Shown: positions 6,694 through 32,638, counted from the first letter of the stretch. The stretch: DNA of 64,000 nucleotides from Chthonomonas sp. (GCA_016788115.1 JAEURR010000003.1:248001-312000), one strand, 5' to 3'. Program-made: numbers and translations. The notes: a model not told the origin generated them from the letters alone.

Positions 6694-6727
6694 AGTCATG
6701 GGTCCTTGTGTCTTAATTCTATCGCGA

Positions 6728-8292: not shown

Positions 8293-8298
8293 GGTCGT

Positions 8299-9255
8299 TT
8301 ATCGATCCTCCGGAGAACCGCCCTGCGAAGGTCGGCCTGGGCCACCGCCCGGTACACCCGCAGGTGGAGCACCACCCGCCGGGAGCAGTCCGGGCCCTGC
8401 CGCGGCAGGAGGAGCGGCCGAGCCAGGGCCTACCGGAGCCAGCGAGGCACGTGGCACCGGAGTGCGGAAATCGTAGTTCAGCTGCTTGTCGGCCGGGATC
8501 GAAGGATCCATGTTCAGCACGACACCAAAGGTGACTTCAGACCACTTCGGCATAGCGCGTTTGGCATCGCGGGTACCCGTTCCAAAGTTGCCCGCGCCGG
8601 TAAACCCGTCGTTAGCATCCTTGGCTTGTTCGACCAAGTAGGCGATCCGCTCATCCGGCCCCTTGGATCCGTCCGGACGCATAAATGGCGGAATCCTTCC
8701 GGCCTTCACGAGGTGCGGAAGACCAATATTATCCGTCGCGTCTAACCCAGGGACGTACGTGTCGTTCAAATCAAAAGTCGAGCGGCTGACCTGAACCGCG
8801 CCGGGGATCCGTAGGAGCGCCAGCGCAGTGTCTGCATACTGCTGGTAAGTCTGCAGGACGCCGGTAACGGTCAACAAACAACCCGTCTCAGAAGCCGGTC
8901 GCACCGACATCGCGTTCACACGCATGTAAGAAGGGATGTAGGGCTGAATGGAGCGATAGAATTCCGTGTACTTGGTGTTCTGCGCGGTCATCGCCTTGTA
9001 CAGGTCCAGGTTTCGCTTGACCTCGGTACCCTGGGCGGCCTTCGCCTCCGCAGATTGCGCGAGCGCGACGACTGCATCGGCTTGCACCTTTGCTTCGTCC
9101 ATCTCGACCTTCGCCGCCTCACGCTTGCCCGATGAGTAGACACTCATGAAGCCAGCAAGCGCCGCGCCGCCGATGGCGAGCAACAAGCCGAGGACAAGAA
9201 AGGTTCGGCCTCGCGCGCCTTGAGTCACATATTTTGGGAGAAGATTAAGCTTCAT
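8299..9255 (-). CDS. pilN: PilN-like pilus assembly protein
   Basis: A 318-residue bitopic protein. The N-terminus MKLNLLPKYV matches the conserved PilN peptide (typically INLLP) that inserts into PilM. A membrane helix follows (about 17-38), then a coiled coil (40-85) and a small alpha/beta domain (about 105-160, MRVNAMSVRP...LLTVTGVLQTYQQYADTAL). Residues 160-270 carry an extra stretch not typical of PilN, and the last 45 residues are Pro/Gly/Ala-rich (APPAAAGPGLLPAGGAPP). Nine bases separate it from pilM. Confidence 0.85.
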   Translation of the reverse strand: MKLNLLPKYVTQGARGRTFLVLGLLLAIGGAALAGFMSVYSSGKREAAKVEMDEAKVQADAVVALAQSAEAKAAQGTEVKRNLDLYKAMTAQNTKYTEFYRSIQPYIPSYMRVNAMSVRPASETGCLLTVTGVLQTYQQYADTALALLRIPGAVQVSRSTFDLNDTYVPGLDATDNIGLPHLVKAGRIPPFMRPDGSKGPDERIAYLVEQAKDANDGFTGAGNFGTGTRDAKRAMPKWSEVTFGVVLNMDPSIPADKQLNYDFRTPVPRASLAPVGPGSAAPPAAAGPGLLPAGGAPPAGVPGGGPGRPSQGGSPEDR

Positions 9256-10554: not shown

Positions 10555-10584
10555 ATCTTACTACTGGGGTCTCAGGTGTGTCAA
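10555..10584 (-). promoter_or_regulatory. Sigma-70-type promoter for the pilM-N-O-P-secretin operon
   Basis: On the minus strand a perfect -35 box TTGACA (10579-10584), an 18-base spacer and a -10 box TAAGAT (10555-10560, four of six consensus bases). Transcription would begin near 10548, leaving a leader of about 30 bases before the pilM ATG. It lies just beyond the terminator of the giant-protein operon, so the two pilus operons appear to be expressed separately. Confidence 0.65.
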
Positions 10585-10681: not shown

Positions 10682-10719
10682 CAAAAGATACAGGGCCGAG
10701 AGGAAATCTCTCGGCCCTG
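10682..10719 (-). terminator. Rho-independent terminator of the minor-pilin/giant-protein operon
   Basis: A perfect 12-bp stem (10691-10702 with 10708-10719, CAGGGCCGAGAG/CTCTCGGCCCTG) with a 5-base loop, 23 bases past the stop of the 2318-residue gene. On the minus strand it is followed by TATCTTTTGA. No competing structure was seen. Confidence 0.8.
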
Positions 10720-10742: not shown

Positions 10743-13700
10743 CTAGTTGCCTGGCTGCGAGTTGATCACCGGCGCCCACGTCTGCATGAACACGTCCGGG
10801 GAGCCGTCGCGAGTGCTGGACCACAGCATCCACCATAGCCCAGGTCGCCCCAGGCCCGGTGCGCTGAACGCTCCCGAGAACGGATCGAGCATCAGCGTCA
10901 TCGACGATTCGGTTCCTGGCTCGCTGACCGGGATCGGGGTTTCGTCCATTTCGCCGACGTATCCGACACGCTGGGTGGTCTGGACTCGCTGCTGATTCCC
11001 GTTCGAATCGATGATCGTGTATCGAACGGTCAGCACTCGGCTTTCATTCTCAGACGTGACGTAGATGTTTCCGCGGACGGGATCGACCTGATAGAACGAG
11101 CCCGAGGCCATACCGCTTACCGAGAAGCGCACCAGCAAGCCCGAGGAGTTCAGCGCTGGCAGGCTCGGAAGCCGGAAACCGTGTCGAAGCGTACGGAGGT
11201 ACGGACGAACACCGGTGTTGGCTCCGCCCTGAGTCGCCGTTCGCGAGTACGACAAGATGTACCGATCGACTCGCATCTGGTTCGCTGCAGGGTCGAACAA
11301 CGATCCGCCACCAAACGTGAACGACTCGGACGCTGCGTAGGGCAGCTCAGTCTGATACCGATCGTCGAACACCATGTTGACGCCCGAGTAGTTCTGAGCC
11401 TCCGATTCGCTGATCCGCGCAAAGCGCGGGGTGGACCGTAGGATGAGCGTAGACTTGGTGGGCACCAACGCGCCAGCGAGCTTGACCGAGCCGTTGCTTA
11501 GGTCGATCTGCGCCTGTCCGCCAAAGATCGTATCCACGATCAGGAGCCGACTCGACGCGTCGTACTGCCGCGTGTTGTTGTCCAAGATCGACTCGTAGCC
11601 GCCGTTGACTCGCCGCAGCACATCGATGAACTCGCTGTTCAGCGGGTTGGCAATCACGCCTTCCACGGTGCCGTTCGTGTCCGTCGCATCGCTGCGCAGC
11701 TCCACGCCTCGACTCCAGTACGCGCCGGTGATTCGATCGTAGATCAGATCGTCGGTCCGGGTCGCCCAGACCTGCAAGAACGAGCCTGCGAATCTCTGCG
11801 GTACGCCCGCGTTGTTGCAGTTCATCGTTGCGAGATAGACTTCCGAGTTCGACTTGCCGCGGAGCTTGCCCGTAAACGAGAGCTGGATCTGAGGTCCAGG
11901 CACCGCCCCCAAGGCGTTGCGCAAGATCGCGCTCACCGAGCCAACGGTCTCGAACGACGAGTTGATCGCAAGCGAGCCCAGCACGCTGTTGCCCAATCGC
12001 ACCCATCCGCCGTTCGTGTAGACCGCCCAGTTCAACTGTTGCAAGCCACCCGACGTGGTCGTAAAGAACACGGTGGCGGTACTGCCTGTTTGGACAATCG
12101 AGGGTCGGCCGATCCTTGCGCCTTCCAGCGCAGTCGAGCCGCCCACCGCGAGCGGTGTGACGTTGTTGATCGTAACCTGGCCATTGGCGTTCGTAGTCAC
12201 CGTTGCGATGAACAACTGCGAAAGCCGAACGGTCTCGCCGTTGGCCGTCGTGGCCGAGGCTTCACCCACGAACGTCAGGTAGACAGAGTTGTTCAGACCG
12301 CGACCCGGGAAGTTCTGCAGCGGGTTGTACGCACCCATTGCTGGGAATGCGGGCATGCCGAAGCGAACCGTGGACGGGTTGATCGTCGTATTGGGACCAA
12401 CTCCGAAGAGGGCCTCGTACGATCCGCCCGGGAATGGAGTCTGGTTCTGGATGAACCATCGCTGGTTCGAAGCCGAGCCCCACTGGTCGAGGTCGTTGGT
12501 CGGGTTCGGAGCAATCGCGCCCGAGGGAGCGTCGCCGCGAAGCGAAGCCGCATACAGCGACCAGGTTGCTTGCGCCGCCGAATCGCTCTGCGTTCTCAGC
12601 CGCTGAGTCCAACCAGGGCCGCCGCCCGTGCTCTGTCGGTTCGAGCTGAAGACCACGACCAAGTTTCCGAAAGAGTCTCGGTATCCGGCAGGCTCTTGGT
12701 TCGCCCACATGAATCGGTGGTCATTGGCAATGGTGAGCGCATCGACCATCGAACCACTCTTGCGGGTGTTTCGATTGGTAATGCGTGCCTCAACGACTTC
12801 GAACGACAGCCGGATTCCCGGATCGATGTACGACTCGTAGATCGCGTTGCTTCCGGCTCCGGACAGCACGCCAATCGTCGGGATGCCACCCGCCGTGAAG
12901 ATCGTGTCTTCGAAGGCGTAGATGTCCTGGCGGTACTTGCCCACCGGCGTACCGATCGGGACCGAAACCGTCAGCTTCGGATCGTCAATCGGCGGGAAGC
13001 CAGAGTCGGCGACGCCCAAGTTGACGTTGCCACGACGAGGCGGAGCCAATCGCAGGCGGGTGGGAACACCATCCCCGACTCGCGACTTTTGCACAATCCG
13101 CTTGCGGTTGTAGGCAACGGGTGTGAGCGACTCGTCCAAGTCCGAATGCAGGTGACGGACCGTGTCCATCCACGCATTGAAGTTCAGGCTTGGGCTACCG
13201 AGCACGCGTGCTCGCGAGTCGTTCTGGATGTCCTTTCCGACCCGTACGTTGAGCAAGTTCACGTTCCCTTCATTCCAAACGGTGAAGGTGCGCGTGTACG
13301 AGCCCGCGGAGCCAAACGTCGCATCGTTCATCAAGAACGGATTCGAGCGCGGATCTTGACCAGGAAGGTAGATGCCACCTTGCGGTATCGGGCCGAGGTC
13401 CACCGTCGGCGATGTCGTGCTCAGCCGCTCATCGACGGCCACGTACGCAGCACCGCGATACTCACGGTAGGCAAACGCCGAGTCCTTCGTGAATTGCGAG
13501 ATACTCGTTCCGCCTGGATCGATGTAGACCCGGTTCCGGCTCTCGTACCACTGGGCGGTCGGCGGCTGGTACTTCGGCACATCCAACTGGAGTTGGAACT
13601 CGGTCGGACGCAACACGCGCGTCAGACCCGCGTTGTACGTCGCGACGTCCGTCTCGTAGGTCTCGCGCTCGACATCGCCGAAGATCGCGCCCTCGAGTTC

Positions 13701-16700
13701 GACGGGCTGGAAGACCGGGTTCTGTGCCAGGCCGTTCGGCTTGGCAGCGACTGTCAGCGCGTCGCGGCGGATGTTCGGGTAGTCAAGGCTCGTGTTCGAG
13801 TCCTCGGCATTGGGAGCATCCTCATAGCCGGCGAAGTAAGAAGGATCAAGCGTCTTGATGCGGAAGTCCGTTGCGACCGGATTATCGTTCGCATCGGTGA
13901 GCTTCCACACCATGTCTCCGCCTCGGAATCGGACGTTAGTCAGACCCTTGCCGAAGCCGTTCAGCAGCGACATCGCGCTGCGGTCCAGCACGAACATCAC
14001 GCTCTCGGCGGTCGTACCGTGTTTGACGAAATTGATCGGGTAATTCAGGACGTTGAATACCGAGTCGCCGAACCCTTGGCGGATAATCCGCAAGTTATTC
14101 GAGACGAACGAACCGTTCTGAAGCACCTCAGGCGAAGCGGGATTGAGCGTAACACCGATGGAGTCGCTCGTGCCACCCGCAGCCCCGCCGCTCAGCCTGG
14201 AAATCGCCAACGGATTCGCGAGCGTGTAAGTGAGCGAAGGAGCATAGTTCGCGTTGAGCAACGTGGCATTCGCCGATCCACGATTGGGGCGTGTGGCCAC
14301 CGCTGAGACGCGCATCGTCATGCTGCCCGGAGCCAGTCCGCTCGTACCCGTCCCGCGCAACGGGATCGCGATCAGCGAGACCGTGCCCAGATCGGGAGTC
14401 GTGCCCGTGACTGCGTAGGTCGGACCGAACTGCCGGCGCGTTGCCGAGTTTGTGGCCGTGACTTCGGCCTGGACCTGATAGGTCGTGGTGCCGGTCGGGT
14501 TTTCCGGAAGGTTGTAGACCATCACGTACAAGGTCTCGCCGTACTCAAATGCCGTACGGGTGACTTTCGACTTGATCGCCCCCGAAGTATTGGCCAGCGC
14601 CTGAATCTCAGCGTAAGCAACCGGCGTACCGTTCGCGAACTTCTGCCACAGTTTCTGATAGTCGTCAGGCAGCAGCAGCGTCGATCGGCTGTTCAGCGTG
14701 ATGCCGTTCAGGATATCGATGGTGGGGTCGTTCGGTGGAATCTCTTCGGCCACCGGCGAGTCGCCGGGCGTCAGAGCGAGGTCGCCGTCCGCGAAGTCGG
14801 GATCGTCGCCAAACGCGTACATCGTTCCGAGCGCATCAGCCACGTACATGAAGCCGTACTCCTCATCGAACGCAGCCGAAGGCGGCGTCCAACCAAGCGG
14901 CTTGCCACCGAAGGCAGGCGATGTCGCGCGTGTCCCTTCCAGCTTGTAACCACCCGCGTCGCGCAGGCCGGTTGCCGCCGGTCCGGATGAAAGCCGGTTC
15001 GTGTCGCCTGTTCGTGCGAAGTAACCCTTGATCTGGCCGGTGAGCATCGGCACCATCACCACGGGTCGGCCCTGCGGTGAAGGCGGTGCGCCCGTCGGAT
15101 AGTCCTGCGCGCCCGAGTTCTGAAGCGTATTCATGTACGTAAACCCGAGCGAGCCCGAGGGGCTGGCGTTGAGTTCGCTCGTACTCCAAAGCACTCCACC
15201 CGTGTTGGCATCAAATGCGTACAGCGACCTGTTCGGGTTGGCGATATAGAGGGTATCGGGCATACCGCCCGGGCCATCCACAATCGCATCGGGGACCACA
15301 ACCGGCGAACTCGACTCGAAGCCTCCGAAGAGGTTGATCGTGCCGGTACCGTCCGTGCTCCAGACGAGATTGCCGTCACCGTCCGCCTCTGGATCGTTTT
15401 GATCCAGTGCGTAGAGCTTCGAGTCGCCCGCACCGAAGAAGATCTTGCCAAATGCCACCGCGGGAGACATCGTGATCGAGCCAACTCCGAGCGGAGCCGC
15501 TGCGGCGGGGTACTGCCAAGTGATCGTCGTCGTGCGAGTGGCGGTCGAACCTGCCGCGTCGAGCGCATAAAGTCGTCCAAGTCGCGTCGGGACGAAGACT
15601 GTCGCCGTCGCTGGGCCGCCGCCGCTCGAGGTGGTCGAGACCGTCACCGAACCCGTGATGGGGCCGACGTTCAGCGCCGATGGGGCGGCTGGGTAGTCAT
15701 CCGGCCAACTCCAACGTCGCGTGGTGGTGCCATCGCCGCGACCCTGGGTGTCCAGACAGTAAACCTTGCCATTCTTCGAGCCGATGTACAGCAGGAATTC
15801 GGTGTCGGTCGCCAGCGGGCCAGTTTGCACTTCGGCGACTGCCGCCGAGGTCACGTCGAAGCCAGTCGGCATCTGGGCGATGCCATCGGGTCCGTCGATT
15901 CCCACGACCTTGTTCGGGTCGCTGCTAGCGGGCTTCTCGCTCGGCCAGACCCAATAGACTTCAGTTTTGCCCGTGTAGTTAGGGCCGGACTTGAGCCCGT
16001 CCGCATCCAAACAGTAGATGCGTCCGTTCTCCATCGCGACGATCGCAACGTCTCGGGTCGCCAGACCACTCGAGGTCTGAACCGGGATGCGCGTGAAGAG
16101 CGGAGTCGAGCGGATGCTCAGGTCCGCCGTGCGGACAAAGCGAATGCCATCGGCCAACACCGTGCGTCCGACGTCGGCTGCATTGGTGGTCTGGTTCGTC
16201 ACGGCGACCGACAAGGTCGCGGCCTCGTCGCTCTCGAACACGGAGACACCGCTGATGCTCAGCCGAGCCCACCGTGCGCTCGTCGTCTGGTCGACCGTCG
16301 CGGATCCGATCAGGAAACCGCCGCGGTAGATTTCGACCTGGGCTGCACGGGCCAGGGCCGAGTTTGCACCTGGCACCCACATATCAATCGAGTACTCGCC
16401 CGCGGGCAAACTGGGGCGATAGAACGCGCGCGCCGTCGGAGAAGCGGCAATCGCCGGAACCGAGGCGTAGTCGATCCCAAGGAATCCGGCCACCGCATTA
16501 TCTGGGCCGAAACCAGCACCGAGTTGTACGCCGTGAGACCGGTTGTCCATCGACACCGATTGGGTCGCTCGGCTCAGGCCGCCGATGTCCGCACCAAGAA
16601 TCCAATCTCGCTTCTCAGCAACATAGCGATCGGATTCTGACGTGGTATCGGCTAGCTGCCGGGTCGCGGGCCAGGACCAGACGATGTTGCGTCGCGTGAC

Positions 16701-17699
16701 GCCGCCCGGGTTCGGCTCAGTCGCATCAACCTTGAGACCGCTGTGGTTGTAACTCGAAACGATGCCGAGCGCGTAGTTCTCAACCGAGGATCCGACTTGC
16801 AGGCTCGTTGGATCGTTGCGGGTACCCAGGGTGCGAAGCGGGAACTGTCCGCCCGCCGTGATGCGCCCCAAAACCGGAGCGGCCACCGTCTCGCCGACGG
16901 TATCCAACGCTCGGACCGAACGGGCCGAGTCCGCGTAAACCACGATCGCGGGGCGAGTATCCGTAAGTTCGCCAGTCCCGGTCCGCGGAACCGTGTTCAG
17001 CAGCCGAATCGTGATCTGCGCACCCGTGGCGCGGAAGGTGCGATCGGTCGCCAAGCCGCCGTTACCCAGGCGAGTTTCGCCGCCGCCCGCGTCCGTATCA
17101 ACAACATCGACCACCGGGTTGCCCGGATTGGCTTCGTTCTCAACGCCGACGATCTCATACACAAAGTACCGCTGCGGGTAGTAAAGCCCCGGTCCGAGCG
17201 GCGCACCCGCGTCCAAGACTTCGGTCGGTCCGACCGGGATGTTCACGAAGAGCTGATAGTCTTTTCCAATGGCCGAGGAGAATCGCCATTCAAACGTATT
17301 GGCGGTGCCCGTCGCCGGAACATTGGGGTTTTCCGAGTTTTGCGCGGGAGTGGTGTACGAGTAGTTGTATTCGGCGCGACCCACAATCGGGTTCTTCAAA
17401 GTTGCGTTGAAAGCACGCACTTCGCCGGTCGGCGCAAGCCAATCCGCGGGGTTGAAAGCAACGCCCGAAGAGGTCTCCCAGTTGTCGAGGTCTGCTTGAA
17501 TCGCGCGTACGGGGTCCCACCACCGTAGCCGCAGCCGTCCAGGAGTATCGTTCTGCACGTCACCCACCTGGAGACCGGTCCGCGCACTATCGCCCCTAAA
17601 CGTGGGGTACGTCGATTCTGCGCCGACCCACAAGGCGGCGAGACCGACGAGCGCGAGTGCGAAACCACTCTTAACTGCAAGATTCCACTTGGCTTTCAT
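10743..17699 (-). CDS. Giant exported beta-propeller protein, candidate pilus-tip adhesin
   Basis: 2318 residues with a signal peptide (about 1-28, ending WVGAES). The mature start YPTFRGDSARTGLQ is the hallmark of PQQ-like propeller proteins. About residues 425-525 resemble a Golvesin-type C-terminal/carbohydrate-binding module (AGEYSIDMWVPG ... RWARLSI ... VLADGIRFV). Residues about 540-970 hold repeated blades (RIYCLDADG, KVYCLDTQGRG, RLYALDAAG, KLYALDQND, SLYAFDANTGGVLW). The remaining 1300 residues are beta-rich and unassigned, with no membrane anchor or sorting motif at the end. As last gene after the PilX-like and 1531-residue genes, it takes the position PilY1 has in other operons, so a tip or surface role is inferred; the propeller resemblance is not proof. 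Cysteines are few. Confidence 0.8.
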   Translation of the reverse strand: MKAKWNLAVKSGFALALVGLAALWVGAESTYPTFRGDSARTGLQVGDVQNDTPGRLRLRWWDPVRAIQADLDNWETSSGVAFNPADWLAPTGEVRAFNATLKNPIVGRAEYNYSYTTPAQNSENPNVPATGTANTFEWRFSSAIGKDYQLFVNIPVGPTEVLDAGAPLGPGLYYPQRYFVYEIVGVENEANPGNPVVDVVDTDAGGGETRLGNGGLATDRTFRATGAQITIRLLNTVPRTGTGELTDTRPAIVVYADSARSVRALDTVGETVAAPVLGRITAGGQFPLRTLGTRNDPTSLQVGSSVENYALGIVSSYNHSGLKVDATEPNPGGVTRRNIVWSWPATRQLADTTSESDRYVAEKRDWILGADIGGLSRATQSVSMDNRSHGVQLGAGFGPDNAVAGFLGIDYASVPAIAASPTARAFYRPSLPAGEYSIDMWVPGANSALARAAQVEIYRGGFLIGSATVDQTTSARWARLSISGVSVFESDEAATLSVAVTNQTTNAADVGRTVLADGIRFVRTADLSIRSTPLFTRIPVQTSSGLATRDVAIVAMENGRIYCLDADGLKSGPNYTGKTEVYWVWPSEKPASSDPNKVVGIDGPDGIAQMPTGFDVTSAAVAEVQTGPLATDTEFLLYIGSKNGKVYCLDTQGRGDGTTTRRWSWPDDYPAAPSALNVGPITGSVTVSTTSSGGGPATATVFVPTRLGRLYALDAAGSTATRTTTITWQYPAAAAPLGVGSITMSPAVAFGKIFFGAGDSKLYALDQNDPEADGDGNLVWSTDGTGTINLFGGFESSSPVVVPDAIVDGPGGMPDTLYIANPNRSLYAFDANTGGVLWSTSELNASPSGSLGFTYMNTLQNSGAQDYPTGAPPSPQGRPVVMVPMLTGQIKGYFARTGDTNRLSSGPAATGLRDAGGYKLEGTRATSPAFGGKPLGWTPPSAAFDEEYGFMYVADALGTMYAFGDDPDFADGDLALTPGDSPVAEEIPPNDPTIDILNGITLNSRSTLLLPDDYQKLWQKFANGTPVAYAEIQALANTSGAIKSKVTRTAFEYGETLYVMVYNLPENPTGTTTYQVQAEVTATNSATRRQFGPTYAVTGTTPDLGTVSLIAIPLRGTGTSGLAPGSMTMRVSAVATRPNRGSANATLLNANYAPSLTYTLANPLAISRLSGGAAGGTSDSIGVTLNPASPEVLQNGSFVSNNLRIIRQGFGDSVFNVLNYPINFVKHGTTAESVMFVLDRSAMSLLNGFGKGLTNVRFRGGDMVWKLTDANDNPVATDFRIKTLDPSYFAGYEDAPNAEDSNTSLDYPNIRRDALTVAAKPNGLAQNPVFQPVELEGAIFGDVERETYETDVATYNAGLTRVLRPTEFQLQLDVPKYQPPTAQWYESRNRVYIDPGGTSISQFTKDSAFAYREYRGAAYVAVDERLSTTSPTVDLGPIPQGGIYLPGQDPRSNPFLMNDATFGSAGSYTRTFTVWNEGNVNLLNVRVGKDIQNDSRARVLGSPSLNFNAWMDTVRHLHSDLDESLTPVAYNRKRIVQKSRVGDGVPTRLRLAPPRRGNVNLGVADSGFPPIDDPKLTVSVPIGTPVGKYRQDIYAFEDTIFTAGGIPTIGVLSGAGSNAIYESYIDPGIRLSFEVVEARITNRNTRKSGSMVDALTIANDHRFMWANQEPAGYRDSFGNLVVVFSSNRQSTGGGPGWTQRLRTQSDSAAQATWSLYAASLRGDAPSGAIAPNPTNDLDQWGSASNQRWFIQNQTPFPGGSYEALFGVGPNTTINPSTVRFGMPAFPAMGAYNPLQNFPGRGLNNSVYLTFVGEASATTANGETVRLSQLFIATVTTNANGQVTINNVTPLAVGGSTALEGARIGRPSIVQTGSTATVFFTTTSGGLQQLNWAVYTNGGWVRLGNSVLGSLAINSSFETVGSVSAILRNALGAVPGPQIQLSFTGKLRGKSNSEVYLATMNCNNAGVPQRFAGSFLQVWATRTDDLIYDRITGAYWSRGVELRSDATDTNGTVEGVIANPLNSEFIDVLRRVNGGYESILDNNTRQYDASSRLLIVDTIFGGQAQIDLSNGSVKLAGALVPTKSTLILRSTPRFARISESEAQNYSGVNMVFDDRYQTELPYAASESFTFGGGSLFDPAANQMRVDRYILSYSRTATQGGANTGVRPYLRTLRHGFRLPSLPALNSSGLLVRFSVSGMASGSFYQVDPVRGNIYVTSENESRVLTVRYTIIDSNGNQQRVQTTQRVGYVGEMDETPIPVSEPGTESSMTLMLDPFSGAFSAPGLGRPGLWWMLWSSTRDGSPDVFMQTWAPVINSQPGN

Positions 17700-17714
17700 A
17701 GCAATACTTCACGA

Positions 17715-22310: not shown

Positions 22311-25300
22311 GGCGTGACCTCACCAAAGTAGGCGAGTTGGCTACTGACCGGCAGCCGCGGAGCGGCGGGGAGCACCCACCGACCGTCAGGTGTTGTGCGA
22401 ATCGGATCGTTCGGATCGCTCGAAGCACTGGCCGTTCCCAGCGCGGAGTCGTAGGTCAGGATCAGGTTCGGCACGTTGGGTACGGAGCCGTCGGTGACGG
22501 TGATGTCGAACCCAGCCGGAACGTGCTGGCGCGGGATCAGCTTGCCCGTCGCGGCCACGGTTCGCGGCATCCAACCCCAGAGTCGCTGCCAAGCGGCCTG
22601 AACGGAAATGGGCACCGGCATGTTCTCGCTGATGCTGCCGTTGATCTTGACGCGGACGTTCATCGGCTCATTGAAGAACGGCTTCTCCGGCATCGCGCCG
22701 AAGTCATCAAACCGTTCTTGCTGGGCGGCGGCCAAGCCGATAGCCGTCACACGATTCTCAAAGCGAGCGCGTGTGTCGTTCGGGTCGATGTTGAACGGCA
22801 GACCAGGAATGACGAAGAACGAACCCTCTTCGGCATAGCAGATCGCGTCGATCTGGATGTCGTAGGGAGTCACGGCGACGCGAGCGACTTCGTAGTTCGA
22901 GGACTTCAGACCCGCGATACCGTCGAGCGAGAGCTCAAACTCCGTCTCGTCTTGCAGCGCGAGCGAGGTGAACACACCGGAGACCACTCGACCACCCGTA
23001 TCGACCGAAGTCTGGTCGGCAAGCGGAAGCGAAATCGTCTCAAACGTCGGGTACGTATTGCGACCGGGGGTTCCTAGACCGTAGAGCGGCACGTTCACGG
23101 GAGTGGTTCCTGCGGGCGTGTAGTACGGTCGGACGAGTTCGTTGAACGTCTGCGGCGTTCGGGTCGCTTCGTCTAAGTAGCTAGGAAACTGATAGGCGAG
23201 CGGGTTGACCGCGCCACCTGCGAACGGGTGCGGCAAGACGTTCAGGTTCAAGAACGCAGGGCCCCCGTCGTCAGCAGCGTGCGAGATCAGCAGCTTGCTG
23301 GCGATCGGGGCGTTCGAGTTCGCCTCGGCATAGCGCGACGCGTACGATCTCCAGGTGGACGGATTGTTTGCCTGCGAGCCCGTGAACGCATCGGTCTCCG
23401 GGTTCAGTAGGAACTGCGTCTGCAACCGGAGTCGGCTCGTGATGCCGTCGGGGGTCACCTCAACCGCGTTCTGCGTCAGTACTCCGGGGGTGGCGTTTTT
23501 AGAGGTCAGTGTCTGGTCCGGACCAGGGCCGAAGAACTGTGTCGTGTTCACACAGACGTAGTCCTTGGCCAGAAGCGCGCACATCGACTTCGACGGGTTG
23601 CCGATGACCGAGCCATTCGACGGCGAAGTCACGCCCTTGGTGATGCTCCCATCAATGTAGATGGAGCCCATCGACACGACGGTGACCTGCCTATCGGTGG
23701 GGATGACGCCGCGGACGCGGACGTCGCCCTCGAAATAGAGCACGCCATTGAACGGGAATCCTTCTGCCAGCACTCGATTCTGCAGTGCGCCGGTGAGCTG
23801 AGCGTCGTTGACCTCCATCAGATCAGGGCTGACGACGCTATTGATCACATAGGTCCCAGCACCGAGTCCGACGAGCCGGAACCGAGCGGTGTAGCTACCA
23901 GTATCCGAGCCGTCCGGTCGTCGCCAGGTCGGCTGACCCGAGCGGCTGTCGCGGGTGATTTCAAAGCCGTTTGCGTTCAGTCGAAGGTATGCAGCCAGCG
24001 GAACATAGTAAGGTCCGACCCATCCGCCTGTCTTGCTCGTGGCCGCCTTGTTCGGGTTCAGCCAGTCCTGCATGACGCTGCGGGCGCTGCCGGAACGAAT
24101 CCGCTCGTCCTCGTCCTGCGCGTCGCCCCGCTCGTTCGCCGAGGCCACCACGTAGATCCCTTCGCCGTAGCCGAGCCGGCCCGTGTTTCGTCCGAAGACG
24201 ATTCGGCCGCTGTCGCGCGACAGGGTAATGTAGCGCTGGATGTTCGTCGCCGGATCGACCTGAAGGATTGATGGCGGCTCCTTGCGCGGGATGCTGCGTG
24301 CGTACCCGTTCGGGTCTGTGTCGCGCGATCCGTCGCGGATGACACCGCGCAGGGTCTCAAAGGTGCCGGTACGGCTGTCGAGCTCGTTGCCGCTGCGGAT
24401 CGGATCAAAGCCTCCGCCCGAAACGACCGCACCGTTCTTGATGACGGTGAAGTCGAGTTCAGAGGCGTTGTTCTGCGGCCGAATCGTCCCGGCAACTGCC
24501 CACATATCGCCCAAGTCGGAGTTTACAAAGACTTGCGATCGACCGTGGATTGTCACATCCGCATTGCTGTAGAGCGAACCAGAGCCAATGGAGTAACCAG
24601 CGCTGCTGGTGGCCAGCCCACCAAACTGGCTGACGATCCGCACGGGACGGCCGTCGTAATTGATGCCAAGCCCCTCGTCACCGGGAACCGCCGCGGTGAG
24701 CGAACCCAAATCAGCCGCATTGCTGGTCTTAAACTTGTTGGTGATAAACCGCGCGGTCTCCGTGATGCCAATCGTTGCAAACGCGAGTTGCTTGCGTGAA
24801 GTCGCATTCAGCGAGGCGTCGAGTCCGCGCGCCTTGCCGAGCGCGGCGAGGAACTCAGCCGCATTTGCAAAGCCCGTGACCTGAATCGCCGGAGTGGACG
24901 CAATCGTGGGGTCGCTTGGATTCACGCGGCCCGCGCGACCAATCGACTCGATCACGATGTAGTTGCGCGCCTTTCCGGGCTGTCGCAGAGCGCCCGAAGG
25001 GGTATCGAAGAGCGACCAATCAGCCGGAGCGTAGCGAACGCGCACCAGCGAGCGGCCCCTGTCGAAGTCGATGCGGGTGTAGGGTCCAAGGCCGTCCGGG
25101 CCACCCTTGTCGATGAGCCCGGGTCGGATCGCGTAGTTCGTTCCATCACGGAGATACAGCGCATCCGGATCGCGCACGAATCCGCCCACGGGCGTCAGTC
25201 CGGTACGAACCGGCCGCCAGTCGGCACCCAGAGCGCTCGTCAAGAGCTGCGAATGTGCATAGCGAACGCCAGCCTCGGCGAGGTCTGTGGCGACCGTACG

Positions 25301-25459
25301 CTGCTTGGATCGCCCCGTCTGGGTGATGTTGCGGCTCACGAGTCCCGCAAACACGAAGCCAAGAATGAGCATGATGCCCAAGACAAGCAACGCGATGATC
25401 AGGGTTTGCCCCGACTGTCGGTGAGTTCGAATCGACTGTTTCTCTTGATGCATGTCCAA
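22307..25459 (-). CDS. Oversized PilX/GspK-like minor pilin
   Basis: 1050 residues. A short basic leader ends QSG, followed by QTLIIALLVLGIMLILGF, a PilX_N-type hydrophobic segment with no glutamate at position 5 of the mature form, as is usual for PilX and GspK. The segment continues with AGLVSRNITQTGRSKQRTVA, a typical alpha1 spine, and DLAEAGVRYAHSQLL. The remaining 970 residues are a beta-rich exported region (PilX of Pseudomonas has about 195 residues in all). It sits between the PilW-like gene and the 1531-residue propeller gene, with ATGA coupling to the latter. The minor-pilin call is firm for the N-terminus; the C-terminal domain has no recognised family. Confidence 0.8.
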   Translation of the reverse strand: MDMHQEKQSIRTHRQSGQTLIIALLVLGIMLILGFVFAGLVSRNITQTGRSKQRTVATDLAEAGVRYAHSQLLTSALGADWRPVRTGLTPVGGFVRDPDALYLRDGTNYAIRPGLIDKGGPDGLGPYTRIDFDRGRSLVRVRYAPADWSLFDTPSGALRQPGKARNYIVIESIGRAGRVNPSDPTIASTPAIQVTGFANAAEFLAALGKARGLDASLNATSRKQLAFATIGITETARFITNKFKTSNAADLGSLTAAVPGDEGLGINYDGRPVRIVSQFGGLATSSAGYSIGSGSLYSNADVTIHGRSQVFVNSDLGDMWAVAGTIRPQNNASELDFTVIKNGAVVSGGGFDPIRSGNELDSRTGTFETLRGVIRDGSRDTDPNGYARSIPRKEPPSILQVDPATNIQRYITLSRDSGRIVFGRNTGRLGYGEGIYVVASANERGDAQDEDERIRSGSARSVMQDWLNPNKAATSKTGGWVGPYYVPLAAYLRLNANGFEITRDSRSGQPTWRRPDGSDTGSYTARFRLVGLGAGTYVINSVVSPDLMEVNDAQLTGALQNRVLAEGFPFNGVLYFEGDVRVRGVIPTDRQVTVVSMGSIYIDGSITKGVTSPSNGSVIGNPSKSMCALLAKDYVCVNTTQFFGPGPDQTLTSKNATPGVLTQNAVEVTPDGITSRLRLQTQFLLNPETDAFTGSQANNPSTWRSYASRYAEANSNAPIASKLLISHAADDGGPAFLNLNVLPHPFAGGAVNPLAYQFPSYLDEATRTPQTFNELVRPYYTPAGTTPVNVPLYGLGTPGRNTYPTFETISLPLADQTSVDTGGRVVSGVFTSLALQDETEFELSLDGIAGLKSSNYEVARVAVTPYDIQIDAICYAEEGSFFVIPGLPFNIDPNDTRARFENRVTAIGLAAAQQERFDDFGAMPEKPFFNEPMNVRVKINGSISENMPVPISVQAAWQRLWGWMPRTVAATGKLIPRQHVPAGFDITVTDGSVPNVPNLILTYDSALGTASASSDPNDPIRTTPDGRWVLPAAPRLPVSSQLAYFGEVTP

Positions 25460-25466
25460 GCTCTAC

Positions 25467-27779
25467 TTAGCGGGTGAAGTTCCTCACCGTCGCTGAACCC
25501 CGCAGACTCACACTCTGCGCATTCGGCAGGTTGCTTTGCGAGTAGTTTCGAATCGTCAAGTTCACGTCCATCAGTTGCCGCGTGTCGTAATCAACCGCGA
25601 ACACATCCGTGGACTCTGTGAATTGGAAGCGGTAGCTCACCGAGATGTTCCAGGCGCGTCCGGTGGGTGGGCCTGCAGGAATCGGCGATTGCGGATCGGA
25701 ATTGAACTCCAGGTAGCCTGCCTTGAACCGCGGTTGCAGTACTGCGTAGGCAAAGTTCGTCGGATCATAGGTCGTCGGGTCACTCAAGATGCCCGGGTAG
25801 CCAAGCTCGGCATACGCTGCCTGAGTCAGATCGCGTCGGTCCACGTAGTTGATGAAGTATTGGTTCGGGCCGACGTTGACGTTGCCGCTCGTGTCCGCGC
25901 CGACGCGGGTGTACCGAATGGGTGCACCGTAGCTCGGTCCAGGGATCTGGTTCGGGCCAATCACGACCTCACTCCCGGGAACGATGCGTGCCCGTGCGAA
26001 CCCTTGCGTCGGGTGCAGGGGGCTCACGGTGCCATCGGCGCACGGCAAGAACCGTAGGTCCACAAATCGCTTGCAGAAGTCGCTCTTGTCGAGGTTCGGG
26101 CAGAGGGCCGTCCAGTTGTTCCACAGCACGTTGAATCGACTGTTGATCTGGGACGTGGGGCTGCTCGGCAGGTTCACCACCTGCGTCCAGTCACCCGGTG
26201 CGCTTGGCCCTGCTTGGCTCGGAATCAGTTCCGCACCGCCGGTCGTCACTGGGCGGTTGTCGGTCACACCGGCTACAACGGTCGTGCCGACTTCTTCGAT
26301 TCCAAAGCTTGCCTTCACCTGACCCGAGCTCGGATCGACAACGAACGGCACAAACCGCGATCGCATCGCTGCGTCACCCAGCCAGCCGCTACGGCCGTTG
26401 GCCTGGTTCACAGCGTAAGTGAACGGGAAGTTCACGGCAGCAGTGGCGGGGACGATGTTGCGATCGCGACCCGCGGCCGCGCCATAGGCCGACATGTCGA
26501 ACGTCTCGGTGCCGGCGGTGAGCTCGGCACCCGTTCCTGGGAAATCGTAGAGGCTATAGCCAACAGCTTGGCCACTGACGATTCGCTCGCGGCCGATCAG
26601 ATACGGAGTACCCGGCTGCCACGTGCCGAAATTCGTCCAAGGTGCGGCGCCGTTGTACTGACTCGGCCACATGCGGATGACCGAGTTAGCCCACGCCCCG
26701 AATTTGGTGCGCATGACATCCGGTCCCATCTTCACGGCATTGTCAAACTCCAGACCGCTGCGAACAACGACACCACCTTCAACCGGTTCGCTTGCCACCC
26801 GACCCGGGCGGAACTGAACCAGCGACAAGATGCGAGGCACGTTGCCATCGTAAAGTGCGCGGAACGTCGCCTTGTCGTAAATCGGCTGGATCATGTCGTA
26901 ACGGCTGAGCTCGGTCACGACGCGGGACCGTGCCCGCCAGCGCTTGATTAGGTCGGCTTTGGCGGTCCGCTCGGCGGCCGAGTATGCGCCACCGCCCGGC
27001 TTGGTTTCGGTTGCACCGTACTGCCGGAAGAAGCTTGGATCGTCGAGGTCGAGGACGCCATCCCCGTTCAGGTCCGGGAATAGGCTGGCGTTGATCTCCC
27101 ATCGATCCAGCGCTCGGTTGTAAGTCTTGTAGTCCACGTCCGCACGGTAGAGCACGTACAGGTTGTCCTGCCCTGCGCCGCGCTGAAGGATCGCATCGTA
27201 TGGGTTGTTGTAGCGGGCACCGATCTGCTCGTTTCGCACCCCCGTCGCTGGCGTCACGCCGAATGGATCGCGTAGGCCGATGAAGTAGCGGACCATGCGG
27301 AACCCTTGGGCCGTCGGCAACGTGACCTGTCCGACCGGCGTGCGCAAGGTCGGGTCCTCTCGCCAGTTGGCAGGGTCGTCTGGGTTCCCGTTCGGGTTGA
27401 TCAGCAAGTTCGGGTTGAGCAGAGCACCACTCGGCCCGCGCAAGGGCTCACCAGCACTCGGCACCAAGATATCGATCTTGCTGTAGGCCAAGCGGATCAG
27501 CTCAGGCTGGGTGTTAAGCCCGGGAACAACGACGTCAATCGAGCCAAGGTCGCCCGAGTTGTCGCGCACTCCCGCAGCGTTCGAGACCTCGCGGGTCACC
27601 TGGTCGATCAAAATGCGCGCGCGATCTTGCGCGTCGGCAAAGCCTTGACCAGCCCGGGTGAAGTTGAAGCTCTGTACCACTGGCAGCGTGATGATCGTGA
27701 GCAAAATGCCCGTGATGGCCATTACCGTCAGAAGTTCGATGAGCGTAAAAGCGCCGGATACGCGGGGTCGTCTCGTCAT
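25467..27779 (-). CDS. Oversized PilW/GspJ-like minor pilin
   Basis: 770 residues from the ATG at 27777-27779, which overlaps the PilV-like stop as ATGA; an earlier in-frame start would lie inside that gene. Prepilin leader MTRRPRVSGA, then FTLIELLTVMAITGILLTII with Glu at +5, then a helix with QGFADAQDRARILIDQVTREV. The body is several times the usual 200-270 residues and beta-rich. It contains a dockerin/EF-hand-like loop DLNGDGVLDLDDPSF (around nucleotides 27035-27080), a likely calcium site. The -1 residue is Ala rather than Gly. Confidence 0.8.
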   Translation of the reverse strand: MTRRPRVSGAFTLIELLTVMAITGILLTIITLPVVQSFNFTRAGQGFADAQDRARILIDQVTREVSNAAGVRDNSGDLGSIDVVVPGLNTQPELIRLAYSKIDILVPSAGEPLRGPSGALLNPNLLINPNGNPDDPANWREDPTLRTPVGQVTLPTAQGFRMVRYFIGLRDPFGVTPATGVRNEQIGARYNNPYDAILQRGAGQDNLYVLYRADVDYKTYNRALDRWEINASLFPDLNGDGVLDLDDPSFFRQYGATETKPGGGAYSAAERTAKADLIKRWRARSRVVTELSRYDMIQPIYDKATFRALYDGNVPRILSLVQFRPGRVASEPVEGGVVVRSGLEFDNAVKMGPDVMRTKFGAWANSVIRMWPSQYNGAAPWTNFGTWQPGTPYLIGRERIVSGQAVGYSLYDFPGTGAELTAGTETFDMSAYGAAAGRDRNIVPATAAVNFPFTYAVNQANGRSGWLGDAAMRSRFVPFVVDPSSGQVKASFGIEEVGTTVVAGVTDNRPVTTGGAELIPSQAGPSAPGDWTQVVNLPSSPTSQINSRFNVLWNNWTALCPNLDKSDFCKRFVDLRFLPCADGTVSPLHPTQGFARARIVPGSEVVIGPNQIPGPSYGAPIRYTRVGADTSGNVNVGPNQYFINYVDRRDLTQAAYAELGYPGILSDPTTYDPTNFAYAVLQPRFKAGYLEFNSDPQSPIPAGPPTGRAWNISVSYRFQFTESTDVFAVDYDTRQLMDVNLTIRNYSQSNLPNAQSVSLRGSATVRNFTR

Positions 27780-29695
27780 TGGTCCACTCCGGTCTTCGTG
27801 AGGAAGGTCTCGGTCTCGCTTCGCCTTTGACCGCGCAACCACACTTCCAGTTCCGAGAGATTCTGCGTTGGATCTGCCTTCAAAGTCATGAACTGTGGGT
27901 TATAGGTCACGCGGACGCTGACACTCGAGCCGCGTACTCGTCGGACCGCGAACCCGTAGCTGAAGTCGAGCACCGCACCCGAGCCAGCGCTGGGTCGAAT
28001 ATCGATCGTTCCGAGTCGCAGATCTCCCGTCGCGGGAGGTCCGATGATGAATTCCTGATCTCGGATGACTTGCACCGCCGGGTTCACGCCATCGCGGAAG
28101 TAGATCTCACCGATGGTCACGCGCTTGCCGACGTCGGACAGCGGGAAGTAGATGCGGAACGCTTGGCCGCTCAGGCCGTCCGCCAATCCAGGGAAGCACT
28201 GGTCCCACGTGATGCGCGGGCCCCAAGCCGACAGGTAGGTGGTCGCACCCTTGATCGGCTGCACCGCCCACTCACCCTTGGCCCGGTACAGAACTCGGAT
28301 CGGGCGTCCCTTGACGTCGTCAGCACGAACCGCTGTCGCCTGGCCTGGGAAGATCACGTCGGCCGAGAGGCCGTTCGCTGCGTTGTTGTCCACGTCGATC
28401 ATGCGGACAATGCCGTTTGACTTGTCGACGTTGTAGGAGTTCGGCTCGTAGAGCGCGCCGGTCTCCATGTCCATCACGACCACGTCGCGTCCGCCGGAAG
28501 TCAGCTGGATCCCATTGTAGGTTTTGCCGTCGGCATCCTGGTTGCCCTGCACCTTGAGCGCATTGAGCGAAAGTTTGATGAGATACGGCGAATTGGCGGG
28601 AACGCGGAAGTCGTCGCGGATGATCCGCCAGTCCAGGGCGTTATAGTCCACCCGAGCGGCGAGCGGCAGCCGCCCACGGCCGCGCATCTCCTTGTACTCG
28701 AAGCCCGACGGGTTGAAGAGCAATTGCCCCAGTCCGTAGTTCAGCGGAATGTACTCGTAGACCGCGTCATCCAGCAGCGACGGGTTTGCGACTGCATCAG
28801 TGAACGTCGCTACGGACTGGAACAGCCGCGCGACTCGCAGCGAGTCCCAGTCGGCGCGGACGTAGCCCGGAATCAGGCTCGCCAGCGACACTTGGGTGTA
28901 GAACCGCGAGTTCGGAGCCGTCGCCGAGGCGATGTTATTGACAGTGAAAACGCTTGAGCGCGCCTCTTGATTGCCGCCGTTGTTCACGAAGTAAGTCAGC
29001 GAAATTCGGAACGAGCGATTGAAGGACGGGGCTCGGTACGGTCCTTGCGGCAGGTAGATCAGGTTGTTCTCATCGTCGAAAAGACACACGTAGTCGCGGA
29101 ATCTCTCGCGGAGGATGTTGTCCGTCTCCCGCGTTGCGAGGTTGTTGCCGTACACCTGCAGCGCGTTGGCGGCGACGGTGGGGACGCTGATCGGCGCAAA
29201 GTTCAGGATCATCAGCGAGCCATAGAGCGCGCCAGAAGACTGCGGGATGAAGCGGGGAGCCGGGATCACTCGACCCTCGCCGATGATTCCGCGGAAACGA
29301 TTGGCAGAGGTGAAGTATTGCCAGGGGCCAGTGCCGAAGCCCGACACCAAAGTTCCGTCTTGCTGTAGCGCCGTCGTGCCAGTGGGCACGCCGTCATTGA
29401 GCGTGGCATTGACGTCAATGTCCGCGAAGAATCCCGTCGCGGTGTTGCTGTCGTTGTTCGCGACAATCGCTTCAGGAAGTTGCTCGGAGAGTCCCTTCAG
29501 GCGCTCCATCTCCGTACGTGCAAGTTGGTTTGCCATGGTCGCATCGCGTGACTGACGCAAGATGCCCAAGCCTCGCGGGAAGATCTGCACGACGGCCAAG
29601 ATCCCGATGAGGAACACCACGATCACGACGAGCAGCTCGATGAGGCTCGTGCCGCGTCGCATCCGGCTTCTGGATTGAAGTGTGGTACCAGTCAT
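27776..29695 (-). CDS. Oversized PilV-like minor pilin
   Basis: 639 residues. Leader ending SRMRRG, then TSLIELLVVIVVFLIGILAV with Glu at +5, followed by QIFPRGLGILRQSRDATMANQLARTEMERLK (shown here in part only: RDATMANQLARTEMERLK), which is the classic PilV pattern of a helix containing an AxxQxARTEME-type run. PilV proteins are usually near 180 residues. The extra 450 residues form a beta-rich region of unknown family. The gene is coupled to the PilW-like gene by ATGA and is preceded by the small pseudopilin gene. Confidence 0.8.
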   Translation of the reverse strand: MTGTTLQSRSRMRRGTSLIELLVVIVVFLIGILAVVQIFPRGLGILRQSRDATMANQLARTEMERLKGLSEQLPEAIVANNDSNTATGFFADIDVNATLNDGVPTGTTALQQDGTLVSGFGTGPWQYFTSANRFRGIIGEGRVIPAPRFIPQSSGALYGSLMILNFAPISVPTVAANALQVYGNNLATRETDNILRERFRDYVCLFDDENNLIYLPQGPYRAPSFNRSFRISLTYFVNNGGNQEARSSVFTVNNIASATAPNSRFYTQVSLASLIPGYVRADWDSLRVARLFQSVATFTDAVANPSLLDDAVYEYIPLNYGLGQLLFNPSGFEYKEMRGRGRLPLAARVDYNALDWRIIRDDFRVPANSPYLIKLSLNALKVQGNQDADGKTYNGIQLTSGGRDVVVMDMETGALYEPNSYNVDKSNGIVRMIDVDNNAANGLSADVIFPGQATAVRADDVKGRPIRVLYRAKGEWAVQPIKGATTYLSAWGPRITWDQCFPGLADGLSGQAFRIYFPLSDVGKRVTIGEIYFRDGVNPAVQVIRDQEFIIGPPATGDLRLGTIDIRPSAGSGAVLDFSYGFAVRRVRGSSVSVRVTYNPQFMTLKADPTQNLSELEVWLRGQRRSETETFLTKTGVDQ

Positions 29696-29745
29696 TTCAG
29701 TCGATCCAAGTCAAAAAATCTCATGGGAAAGGGACAAGTTAGGCG

Positions 29746-30573
29746 TCAGGGCATGATGCGCCAAGACCGATCGAAGACTTCGCGAGAGTCGAATGGCTTC
29801 GCGCCGCCACCGAGGAAGAGGACCACGTCCAACTTCGCCCGTTCGGGCAACCCGGTTGACCCGTACTCTCGGTAGAAGCTGTTCCAGGTGATGACCGTCC
29901 CCTCGGGCGGGTCGCTGTACCCAAGTTGACGCGGATCGTCGTTCGCGCTACCGGTGCCGAGGCCCTGCTGAGTCCAGAACAGTGCATAGCGCAGTTCCGT
30001 GCGGGTCCCACCCGAGCCGTTGCGCGTGAGCGCCACGTCGTAACCCGAAACGCGATAGAACTGAAGCGGAGTGGATGCGGCATCAAGCGGGATGCTCGTT
30101 ACGGTCCGCGTCGGGCCAAAAGCCTGGCGCGAGCCGACGACATCGTCGGTATTGTCCACCTTGTTGTCACCGTTCAGGTCAATCTGAGGTGCAGTTCCGA
30201 CCGCGCGAGAATCAGCGTTGGGCCACACGGCGGAAGTGATGTCGGTCTGGGCAGCGCGAAGCGGTACGGGGCGGAACGTGTCGATGCTTTCCACGCGCTT
30301 GGGATACAGGTAGGTGCGCAGCTGATTGGCGGGGATGACATTCGAAGTGCCTTCGTACAGCGTGACGTAACCCAAGAGCGCAGGCGGGTAGCCACCCTGG
30401 TCCACACGATAGACCTGGAGTGCCGAGCGCAGCGAGTTCATGTTCGACAGGTCACTGCTGCGATTGGCGCTCACTTTGGTCCTGGAATAGACCGGCGTGA
30501 TAATGGCCGCAAGCACCGCGATGATCGCGATGACGGTAAGCAGCTCAAGCAAAGTGAATGCGCGCGTTCTCAT
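29746..30573 (-). CDS. Type IV pilin/pseudopilin (FimU/GspG/PilE-like)
   Basis: 275 residues from the ATG at 30571-30573, with GAGGG just upstream; a TTG 42 bases earlier was rejected. Prepilin leader MRTRA is followed by FTLLELLTVIAIIAVLAAII, with Glu at +5, then SRTKVSANRSSDLSNMNSL and a GspG-like helix (LRSALQVYRVDQGGYPPAL). The C-terminal part includes the calcium-loop-like IDLNGDNKVDNTDDVV. Of the four pilin-like proteins this is the only one of nearly normal size, so it may be the pilin that starts the tip complex or a major subunit. Alanine replaces the usual glycine at -1. Confidence 0.85.
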   Translation of the reverse strand: MRTRAFTLLELLTVIAIIAVLAAIITPVYSRTKVSANRSSDLSNMNSLRSALQVYRVDQGGYPPALLGYVTLYEGTSNVIPANQLRTYLYPKRVESIDTFRPVPLRAAQTDITSAVWPNADSRAVGTAPQIDLNGDNKVDNTDDVVGSRQAFGPTRTVTSIPLDAASTPLQFYRVSGYDVALTRNGSGGTRTELRYALFWTQQGLGTGSANDDPRQLGYSDPPEGTVITWNSFYREYGSTGLPERAKLDVVLFLGGGAKPFDSREVFDRSWRIMP

Positions 30574-30637
30574 AACCCTCGTTCCAATTCTCCGTGACTC
30601 TACGACTAGCTTCAATGTTCTTGTGTTCCCGTGAAAA

Positions 30638-31666
30638 TTACAAAGTGCGACCGGGGCCGTAAATGTACGTCTCGATCATCGTGGCAAGCTGCGGCTCGAA
30701 GAGCGCGGCCAGCACCGCACCGATGGCCAGATAGGGTCCAAAAGGAATCGTGGTAAGTCCCACGAAATCGTCTTCCTCTTCGACTGACTCCAATGCGTAA
30801 GGGTTCTCTCCGAACCAAGATTCGTACAGTTTTGGTCGAAAGAGTCCGACCACGTCGATCGCCAGCAAGTACCCAAGCCCGCATTTGAAGATCGACGCAA
30901 TCGACTCTGGCTCGTACGGTTCTTCGTCCTCGTCCCCCGCGGGCTCGTCGCTGACGCCCTGCGCCTTCCGCACCAGCAACTGCGCAATTCCCCCCACGGC
31001 ACCAACGATAACCGCGAGGCCAATGGTCATGCCCGTGGCAGCCGGGAAAAGGACCGCTCCGAACCCACGTGCCATCTTGATGTCGCCGTGACCCATGGCG
31101 TCCTTGCCAAAAAGCAGTCGCCCGAGCAAGGTGATGAACCAAATCGTAAGCGTCCCCACCAGCGCCCCCGCGATCGCACTCGGCATGCCCCAGGTCATCG
31201 CGCGTGGCGATCCGACGACAAAGAGACTCACGTTGTAAAGGAGCCCGATGATCAGCATGGCCGCATTCACTTGGTCGGGGATGATGTAGTACTTCACGTC
31301 GATGAAGAACGCACTTACCAGCGCGGCCGCAAGCGCGCAAAGGAAGAGTGCCCGAATGGGATCAGACCCCGCGATCAGGTTTTGCCACCAGAACAGTGCG
31401 AAGAGCACCCCTGTGACGAGTTCGACAATAAAGTACCGCGCGGGGATACCGACTTGGCAGTGGCGGCAGCGGCCTCGCAACACGAGCCACGATAACAGTG
31501 GGATGAGATCGGGGAGTGTGAGGCGCGCCTTGCACTTGGGACAAAAGCTGTTCTTGGGTTCCTGAATGGAGAGCCCCAGCGGCAGTCGGTAGATGACTAC
31601 GTTCAGGAAACTGCCAATGCTCGCGCCGATCATAAGGCCGACGACCCATGTCCACTCAGGAAACAT
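30638..31666 (-). CDS. pilD: Prepilin peptidase/N-methyltransferase
   Basis: Inner-membrane aspartyl protease that cuts prepilin leaders and usually methylates the new N-terminus. Over 342 residues: first helix with IGASIGSFLNVVIYRLP, the zinc-binding CPKC (42-45) and CRHC (67-70) pairs, catalytic aspartate in FIDVKYYIIPDQ and the second in AMGHGDIKMARG. An extra segment of about 75 residues (roughly 235-310), very acidic (DEDEEPYEPES, ESVEEEDDF), is inserted before the last membrane helix and is not typical. First gene of the operon with the pseudopilins it would process. Confidence 0.95.
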   Translation of the reverse strand: MFPEWTWVVGLMIGASIGSFLNVVIYRLPLGLSIQEPKNSFCPKCKARLTLPDLIPLLSWLVLRGRCRHCQVGIPARYFIVELVTGVLFALFWWQNLIAGSDPIRALFLCALAAALVSAFFIDVKYYIIPDQVNAAMLIIGLLYNVSLFVVGSPRAMTWGMPSAIAGALVGTLTIWFITLLGRLLFGKDAMGHGDIKMARGFGAVLFPAATGMTIGLAVIVGAVGGIAQLLVRKAQGVSDEPAGDEDEEPYEPESIASIFKCGLGYLLAIDVVGLFRPKLYESWFGENPYALESVEEEDDFVGLTTIPFGPYLAIGAVLAALFEPQLATMIETYIYGPGRTL

Positions 31667-32636: not shown

Positions 32637-32638
32637 CC

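Follow-up and report, generated by a model that had tools for sequence, protein, structure and literature searches.

The minus strand of a 64,000-nucleotide stretch of a Chthonomonas sp. genome (GCA_016788115.1, JAEURR010000003.1:248001-312000; hereafter the window, with positions counted from its first letter) carries a 21-kb cassette of seven genes, running from 31666 down to 10743, that probably encodes an enlarged priming and tip complex of the type IVa pilus of the phylum Armatimonadota. The genes encode, in order, the prepilin peptidase PilD, a first minor pilin, three large minor pilins (V639, W770, and X1050), and two giant exported proteins (Y1531 and Y2318), the numbers giving protein length in amino acids (aa). 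An earlier note on the same DNA had claimed this order, and it was borne out, with all genes on one strand and tightly spaced. What a type IV pilus attaches to, and when it extends, is determined by its tip complex, and such complexes are known from a few phyla.

Homologues of the cassette proteins were found in dozens of genomes at 24–55% identity, near full length and almost all stop-free, indicating that the cassette genes are real. The four pilins fit the pattern of a type III leader followed by a hydrophobic N-terminal helix: N_methyl or pilin models matched the first pilin, V639, and W770, and X1050 has the N-terminal helix. Glu5 is present in the first pilin (289 aa from a TTG start, 275 aa from an ATG start), V639, and W770, and is absent from X1050 and from all 25 members of its family, whose N terminus reads G/QTLII. 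The PilV match of V639 (TIGR02523) is limited to the N-terminal ~63 residues, and this N-terminal pilin part is common to W770 and V639. Glu5 is likewise missing in PilX and GspK, and in Myxococcus xanthus PilX has been assigned the uppermost place among the stacked minor pilins (PMC7541494).

The cassette is widely conserved. Named genome records matching X1050 were almost all from Armatimonadota, with Fimbriimonadaceae the nearest. Of 291 genomes of the phylum, 272 had an X1050 homologue and 238 a Y1531 homologue; among the 194 genomes more than 90% complete, the numbers were 189 and 172, respectively. In a set of 61 relatives, 59 had a Y1531 homologue and 53 a Y2318 homologue. Linkage was computed from the listed coordinates of the 127 genomes having both X and Y1531. 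Y1531 directly followed X on the same strand in 122 of them (median gap 15 bp), the two genes lay on different contigs in the other five, and in none were they apart on one contig. The order pilin-V-W-X-Y1531-Y2318 is kept in four families of the order and recurs in other classes, such as Chthonomonadia. PilD heads it in three of the four families examined and is present in other classes; in family f2 PilD was not found adjoining. The earlier note had set linkage of the giant genes to pilins in related genomes as a point on which it could fail; as far as this check was run, the linkage held across the order and in other classes. From the conserved order and distribution, we conclude that the large sizes of the cassette proteins are old and maintained.

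The cassette is also linked to genes of the type IV pilus machine. A pilM-to-pilQ operon lies directly downstream (10518–4315), PilD lies upstream in most families, and pilM-to-pilQ, aroB, and a PASTA kinase gene followed the cassette in the order's families where the contig was read that far. The pilB/pilC/pilT motor is absent from the window, as the earlier note had stated, and PilB, PilT, and PilC are found together elsewhere in the source genome (C5:456–464 kb; assembly of 2.4 Mb in 9 contigs, 97% complete). In another Armatimonadota family, a PilB-like ATPase end (named from its sequence), PilT, PilC, PilD, a pilin, V, a pilin, W, and an X of 1283 residues stand in one run without giants (L239, G063 C1:130000–149900), and homology of this X to the X1050 family extends over much of the protein (hhalign E 3e-29). 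Nothing else points as strongly as this run to a role of the cassette in type IV pili, beyond secretion alone.

The same genes bear on a reading as a type II secretion-like pseudopilus, in which X would be a GspK-like cap and Y1531 and Y2318 would be substrates pushed through the secretin, ending as cell-surface adhesins or enzymes. The X family N termini weakly matched GspK (E 0.007), the first pilin is GspG-like, and orthologues of the proteins in the PilN and PilO positions weakly matched GspL_C and T2SSM. PilX-PilY1 has itself been likened to GspK and its substrate (PMC7541494), and in Fimbriimonas 21 genes had been annotated earlier as type II secretion genes (PMC4072686). However, type II secretion is marked by a fused GspL and by the lack of a retraction ATPase, whereas here PilM is a separate actin-like gene, as in type IV pili, and a PilT-family retraction ATPase stands beside PilC and PilB and is linked to the cassette in the other family described above. 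We therefore regard secretion as improbable.

For the type IVa tip complex, the subunit expected at the top is X1050. Its predicted model (predicted local distance difference test, pLDDT, 84; predicted template modelling score, pTM, 0.87) has a 57-residue N-terminal helix (18–74) followed by a large beta-rich body. After realignment, the best structural match was the Thermus tip pilin ComZ (6QVI; root-mean-square deviation 4.6 over 272 residues spanning 226–1043) with a Z of 7.8, which is within the range reached by models without clear relatives, and Z below 8 can reflect a common arrangement; the Foldseek E for this pair was 0.004. Residues 641–869 matched jelly-rolls like those of carbohydrate-binding modules (CBM) 6/35/36 with a Z of about 6, which is noise level for a 1050-residue model, and the best Foldseek matches had jelly-roll pieces alone in common with X1050 (template modelling score about 0.1 by query). 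A sequence search of the PDB with X1050 found no match, ComZ included. Aided by gene position, the ComZ likeness of the predicted fold is a good lead, short of proof. The earlier note had also made its case depend on pilin-like contacts in the predicted folds; where this was followed up, in X1050, the long N-terminal helix and a tip pilin as best match did not refute it.

Y1531 starts with a signal-peptide-like segment, followed by a DUF4159-like region at residues 116–165. DUF4159 was found in 13 of 16 family members, and in the window protein a sub-threshold match to it was all that sequence profiles made visible. In the model of residues 340–1531 (pLDDT 87, pTM 0.79), a first propeller (about 340–1090; model residues 1–751) aligns with BamB (Z about 19, 310 residues) and a second (about 1090–1531; model residues 750–1192) with the six-bladed NHL/Pizza6 propellers (Z about 21). 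The 50 structural matches listed were dominated by BamB-like and six-bladed propellers; the seven-bladed PilY1 propeller 3HX6 was not among these 50 but may still be similar. Foldseek returned DDB1-type multi-propellers, which we took as fold-level similarity alone. PilY1 calcium motif 1, defined as Dx(D/N)xDGxxD (PMC13190605), is present at residues 378–386 (DLNGDGDPD), early in the BamB-like propeller. It stands at one alignment column in 25 of 31 Y1531 homologues, compared to 0.004 per protein expected by composition.

In the Y2318 family, PQQ_2, marking a BamB-like propeller, was found in all 16 members (about 630–840 and E 1.3e-6 in the window protein), and PDB profile matches were to propeller proteins and BamB. 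Golvesin_C was found in 12 of the 16 (best E 1.3e-27); the window protein, itself not listed for this domain, aligns with it at about 385–525. Calcium motif 1 was not found in Y2318. The description of both giants as propeller proteins in the earlier note holds for Y2318 by PQQ_2, but in Y1531 the propellers are not visible in the sequence and appear in the structure model. Plain duplication of one giant was considered and rejected. Y1531 and Y2318 are not simple copies, because their hhalign similarity is limited to a 165-column propeller stretch (76% probability).

Several findings weigh against a tip complex in which Y1531 works as PilY1 does. PF05567, the PilY1 family, gave no match in the window Y1531 or Y2318 at E up to 1 or in 16 members of each giant family at E 0.01 and 0.1, and a canonical PilY1 identity was rejected for either giant on these direct protein scans. 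A genome search for PF05567 in the 61 relatives also gave 0 matches, but the control genomes were silent as well, and the direct scans were relied on instead. Judged by its sequence, Y1531 is not a PF05567 PilY1. No PDB sequence match was found for Y1531. EF-hand-like loops, which are common, look similar to the calcium motif, and such a motif can have independent origins. The ComZ score of X1050 is subject to the limit given with it. Families f6 to f9 keep an X homologue with no Y1531 detectable in the phylum-wide scan, so X can function without Y1531. Finally, a genus of the same family as the source genome (Fimbriimonadaceae) with a reduced genome of 1.5 Mb has a shortened set of pilin, V (262–318 aa), W (492–538 aa), and X (599–685 aa) with no recognisable giants (G030, G159; L232, L233, L234). 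In G030, PilM has a locus of its own, preceded by two unrecognisable proteins (546 and 1456 aa), neither of which has profile similarity to the giants. This genus is a natural deletion experiment, and its shortened set suggests that the extra pilin domains are probably dispensable modules on a pilin core.

Weighing these points, we still favour the enlarged tip complex. The observations on genes, conservation, linkage, Glu5, predicted folds, and the calcium motif are those given above, and from them we infer the following assembly order, docking, and ligand. PilD would cleave the four prepilins. The first pilin, in the FimU/GspH position, together with V and W would form a connecting stem, and X, lacking Glu5 and bearing a very large beta-rich body, would sit on the fibre as its cap, in the manner of ComZ and GspK. 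Y1531, exported by its own signal peptide, would dock on X as PilY1 does on PilX, and its calcium site and two propellers would control extension and adhesion, doing the job of PilY1. Y2318, exported too, would be a further partner and may form the outermost part, where the ligand binds. PilB and PilC would extend the fibre, and PilT would retract it, through the PilQ channel.

As ligand, a surface polysaccharide or DNA is most likely, with no firm choice between them, and two readings of the tip differ in this choice within the preferred explanation. In the first, the X jelly-roll region and the Golvesin_C domain of Y2318 would bind cell-surface or biofilm polymers, and the pilus would serve attachment. 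The CBM-like matches of X and the frequent Golvesin_C domain in Y2318 are consistent with this, as is the precedent of a lectin-bearing modular pilin (PMC9934059), and the pili of Fimbriimonas were regarded as organs of attachment on the ground that the strain is non-motile (PMC4072686). But the CBM matches lie at noise level, and Golvesin_C is here a putative binder, and we consider this reading quite possible although somewhat short of even chances. The adhesion to polymers proposed in the earlier note was accordingly not supported in the form given, being suggested by the weak CBM-like similarity and the Golvesin_C domain alone. In the second reading, the tip would be that of a competence pilus, with X1050 a DNA receptor like ComZ, V a PilA2-like partner, the giants stabilising or gating the tip, and DNA uptake its main job. 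ComZ, the best structural match of X, is a tip pilin of GspK type into which a beta-solenoid is inserted, and it binds DNA jointly with the adjacent PilA2 (PMC6561018); the PilC of the source genome scores best with the Thermus PilC model; and a ComEC core was found in 21 of 21 genomes. However, the similarity to ComZ is modest and at fold level alone, ComEC is widespread and was also found in 10 of 14 control genomes, and the parts resembling CBMs and Golvesin_C speak for a glycan ligand rather than for DNA. DNA uptake as the main job is thus rather unlikely.

In the earlier note, the cassette was taken to be the same complex as FimU-PilV-PilW-PilX-PilY1. The findings on the pilins and their linkage fit this: four minor pilins in like order are followed by a large exported propeller protein, as in Pseudomonas and Myxococcus (PMC7541494), V is PilV-like, Glu5 is missing in X alone, as in PilX, PilD and pilM-to-pilQ are linked, as is PilT-PilC in another family, X and Y1531 are constantly linked, and Y1531 carries the PilY1 calcium motif. 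For the giants it is an analogy, because neither is a PilY1 family member by sequence. The cassette further differs in the length of V, W, and X, about 3–5 times the canonical sizes given in the earlier note, and in that two giants replace a single PilY1. In contrast to PilY1, Y1531 has a DUF4159-like N-terminal region and two propellers, and Y2318 combines a BamB-like propeller with Golvesin_C.

Three other systems were compared. The competence pilus tip of Thermus thermophilus likewise has a very large beta domain on the tip pilin beside smaller minor pilins (PMC6561018, 6QVI), whereas X1050 is about twice the length of ComZ, V and W are also enlarged, and two exported giants follow. In the type IV pili of Streptococcus sanguinis, the minor pilins PilB and PilC are enlarged by grafted adhesive modules at the tip (PMC9934059), but PilC is just about 53 kDa, the modules are different, and there are no exported giant partners. 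The Verru_Chthon cassette (TIGR02596, TIGR02599, TIGR02600) is a pilin-like set with one very long member, and W and some X proteins weakly match it. These matches cover the N-terminal pilin part alone and fall far below the curated cut-offs (W 20 bits against 70 and 256.5, X at most about 15 bits against 332), and membership was rejected. The Verru_Chthon cassette is not known to have giant propeller partners.

No description of Armatimonadota pilus tips or of this cassette was found in the literature. The genome paper on Fimbriimonas names PilB, C, D, Q, M, and T and many PulG-like genes, but its passages on pili say nothing of a tip complex (PMC4072686). With its strong signature across the phylum, the cassette appears to be a large variant, so far undescribed, of a known kind of tip complex that adheres or catches DNA. 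The earlier note had spoken of a candidate new class of pilus tip; this goes too far, since minor pilins that are oversized and modular have precedents in Thermus (ComZ, PMC6561018) and Streptococcus (S. sanguinis PilB/PilC, PMC9934059). Pilins of 600–1100 residues with partners of 1500–2300 residues, maintained throughout a phylum, show how far a pilus tip can grow, and the cassette hints at what some of the largest conserved but uncharacterised proteins of Armatimonadota do. Counting about 110 Da per residue, the six products that follow PilD total about 0.7 MDa, which raises the question of how such a tip passes or rests at the secretin. The cassette would serve as a test of whether an unrelated protein can fill the role of PilY1 and of how a bulky tip gets through the secretin or plugs it. 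A bolder version holds that this is a phylum-specific tip class of ~0.7 MDa, where priming, calcium control, and ligand binding passed to a cap pilin with a solenoid or jelly roll together with two giant propeller proteins unrelated in sequence to PilY1. We find this doubtful; if it were true, passing or parking at the PilQ gate would need another solution than in known pili.

The positions of the cassette genes, the downstream operon, and the candidate transcription signals are given in Table 1. The V and W genes share 4 bp, as do those of X and Y1531 (ATGA at the stop codon of X), and the remaining gaps in the cassette are 7–50 bp. Sites as promoter-like as the one ahead of pilM numbered 2 in 20 kb, compared to 3.6 expected by chance, and this site is weak alone. 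From the spacing, the hairpin, and the promoter-like site, the cassette is probably one transcript ending at the hairpin, and the genes from PilM through the PilN-, PilO-, and PilP-position proteins and the STN-domain protein to the secretin a second. The window proteins in the PilN, PilO, and PilP positions had no Pfam match.

Table 1 Cassette genes, downstream operon, and candidate transcription signals in the window.
Feature	Position	Strand	Evidence
Prepilin peptidase PilD, 342 aa	30638..31666	-	Peptidase_A24 E 9.8e-12; A24_N_bact E 5.5e-32
Minor pilin in FimU/GspH position, Glu5 present	29746..30615	-	N_methyl E 4.5e-5; GspG-like N terminus E 4.8e-11; position conserved
V639, PilV/GspI-like large minor pilin	27776..29695	-	TIGR02523 PilV E 2.3e-7; family alignment; position conserved
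W770, PilW/GspJ-like large minor pilin	25467..27779	-	N_methyl E 3.7e-5; weak Verru_Chthon N-terminal match; family alignment
X1050, tip pilin in PilX/GspK position, no Glu5, beta-rich body	22307..25459	-	25-member alignment; model; best structural match ComZ
Y1531, exported; DUF4159-like region, BamB-like propeller, six-bladed propeller, PilY1-type calcium motif	17715..22310	-	Family profiles; model
Y2318, exported; BamB-like propeller, Golvesin_C-like domain, long conserved C-terminal part	10743..17699	-	PQQ_2, Golvesin_C, and PDB profile matches
Intrinsic-terminator-like hairpin just 3' of Y2318, 12 pairs, 9 GC	10691..10719	-	
Sigma-70-like promoter candidate ahead of pilM, 10/12	10555..10584	-	
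PilM, first gene of next operon	9265..10518	-	PilM_2 E 1.5e-42; conserved downstream neighbour
Three small proteins in PilN, PilO, and PilP positions	6728..9255	-	Named by position
STN-domain protein	6010..6858	-	STN E 1.6e-5
Secretin PilQ	4315..5967	-	Secretin E 7.3e-38

The secretin gene is followed downstream by aroB and a PASTA-domain kinase gene (window 760–4248), a neighbourhood that is stable across the order. On the other side, CheC-like, CheD, HDOD, CheB, and CheR genes at 31950–35882 are divergent from pilD, and the CheC-CheD-HDOD trio was also near the cassette in the two genomes of the same genus (L069, L070). Chemosensory control of the pilus by these divergent genes is possible.

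Further pilus genes were seen elsewhere. The source genome has two smaller minor-pilin cassettes (C7:93.6–97.2 kb, L213; C5:403.7–407 kb, L214) with X-like proteins of 624 and 598 aa, respectively, and V/W-like pilins of normal size, and no Y-type gene adjoins either. In principle this is like M. xanthus, where a genome has several minor-pilin clusters. The N-methylation motif had 35 matches in the 2.4 Mb of the source genome, mostly in single genes of 250–385 aa. The source genome also has a cluster (C6:190–199 kb, L215) with several genes for PilT-like ATPases and one more PilB-like gene, a number that seems to exceed the needs of one pilus. A second, better-scoring PilM-like gene lies outside the cassette locus in relatives (e.g., G001 C1:12895–13929).

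The X gene of the cassette was also found in records named Methanoregulaceae archaeon SJ84 and Propionibacteriaceae UBA6122 (L154, L205), with the full pilin order seen in L205; both records are probably misnamed bins. G162 has two X-Y1531 sets (C43, C14), one of which scored identically to the set on C59 of G164, suggesting mixed binning.

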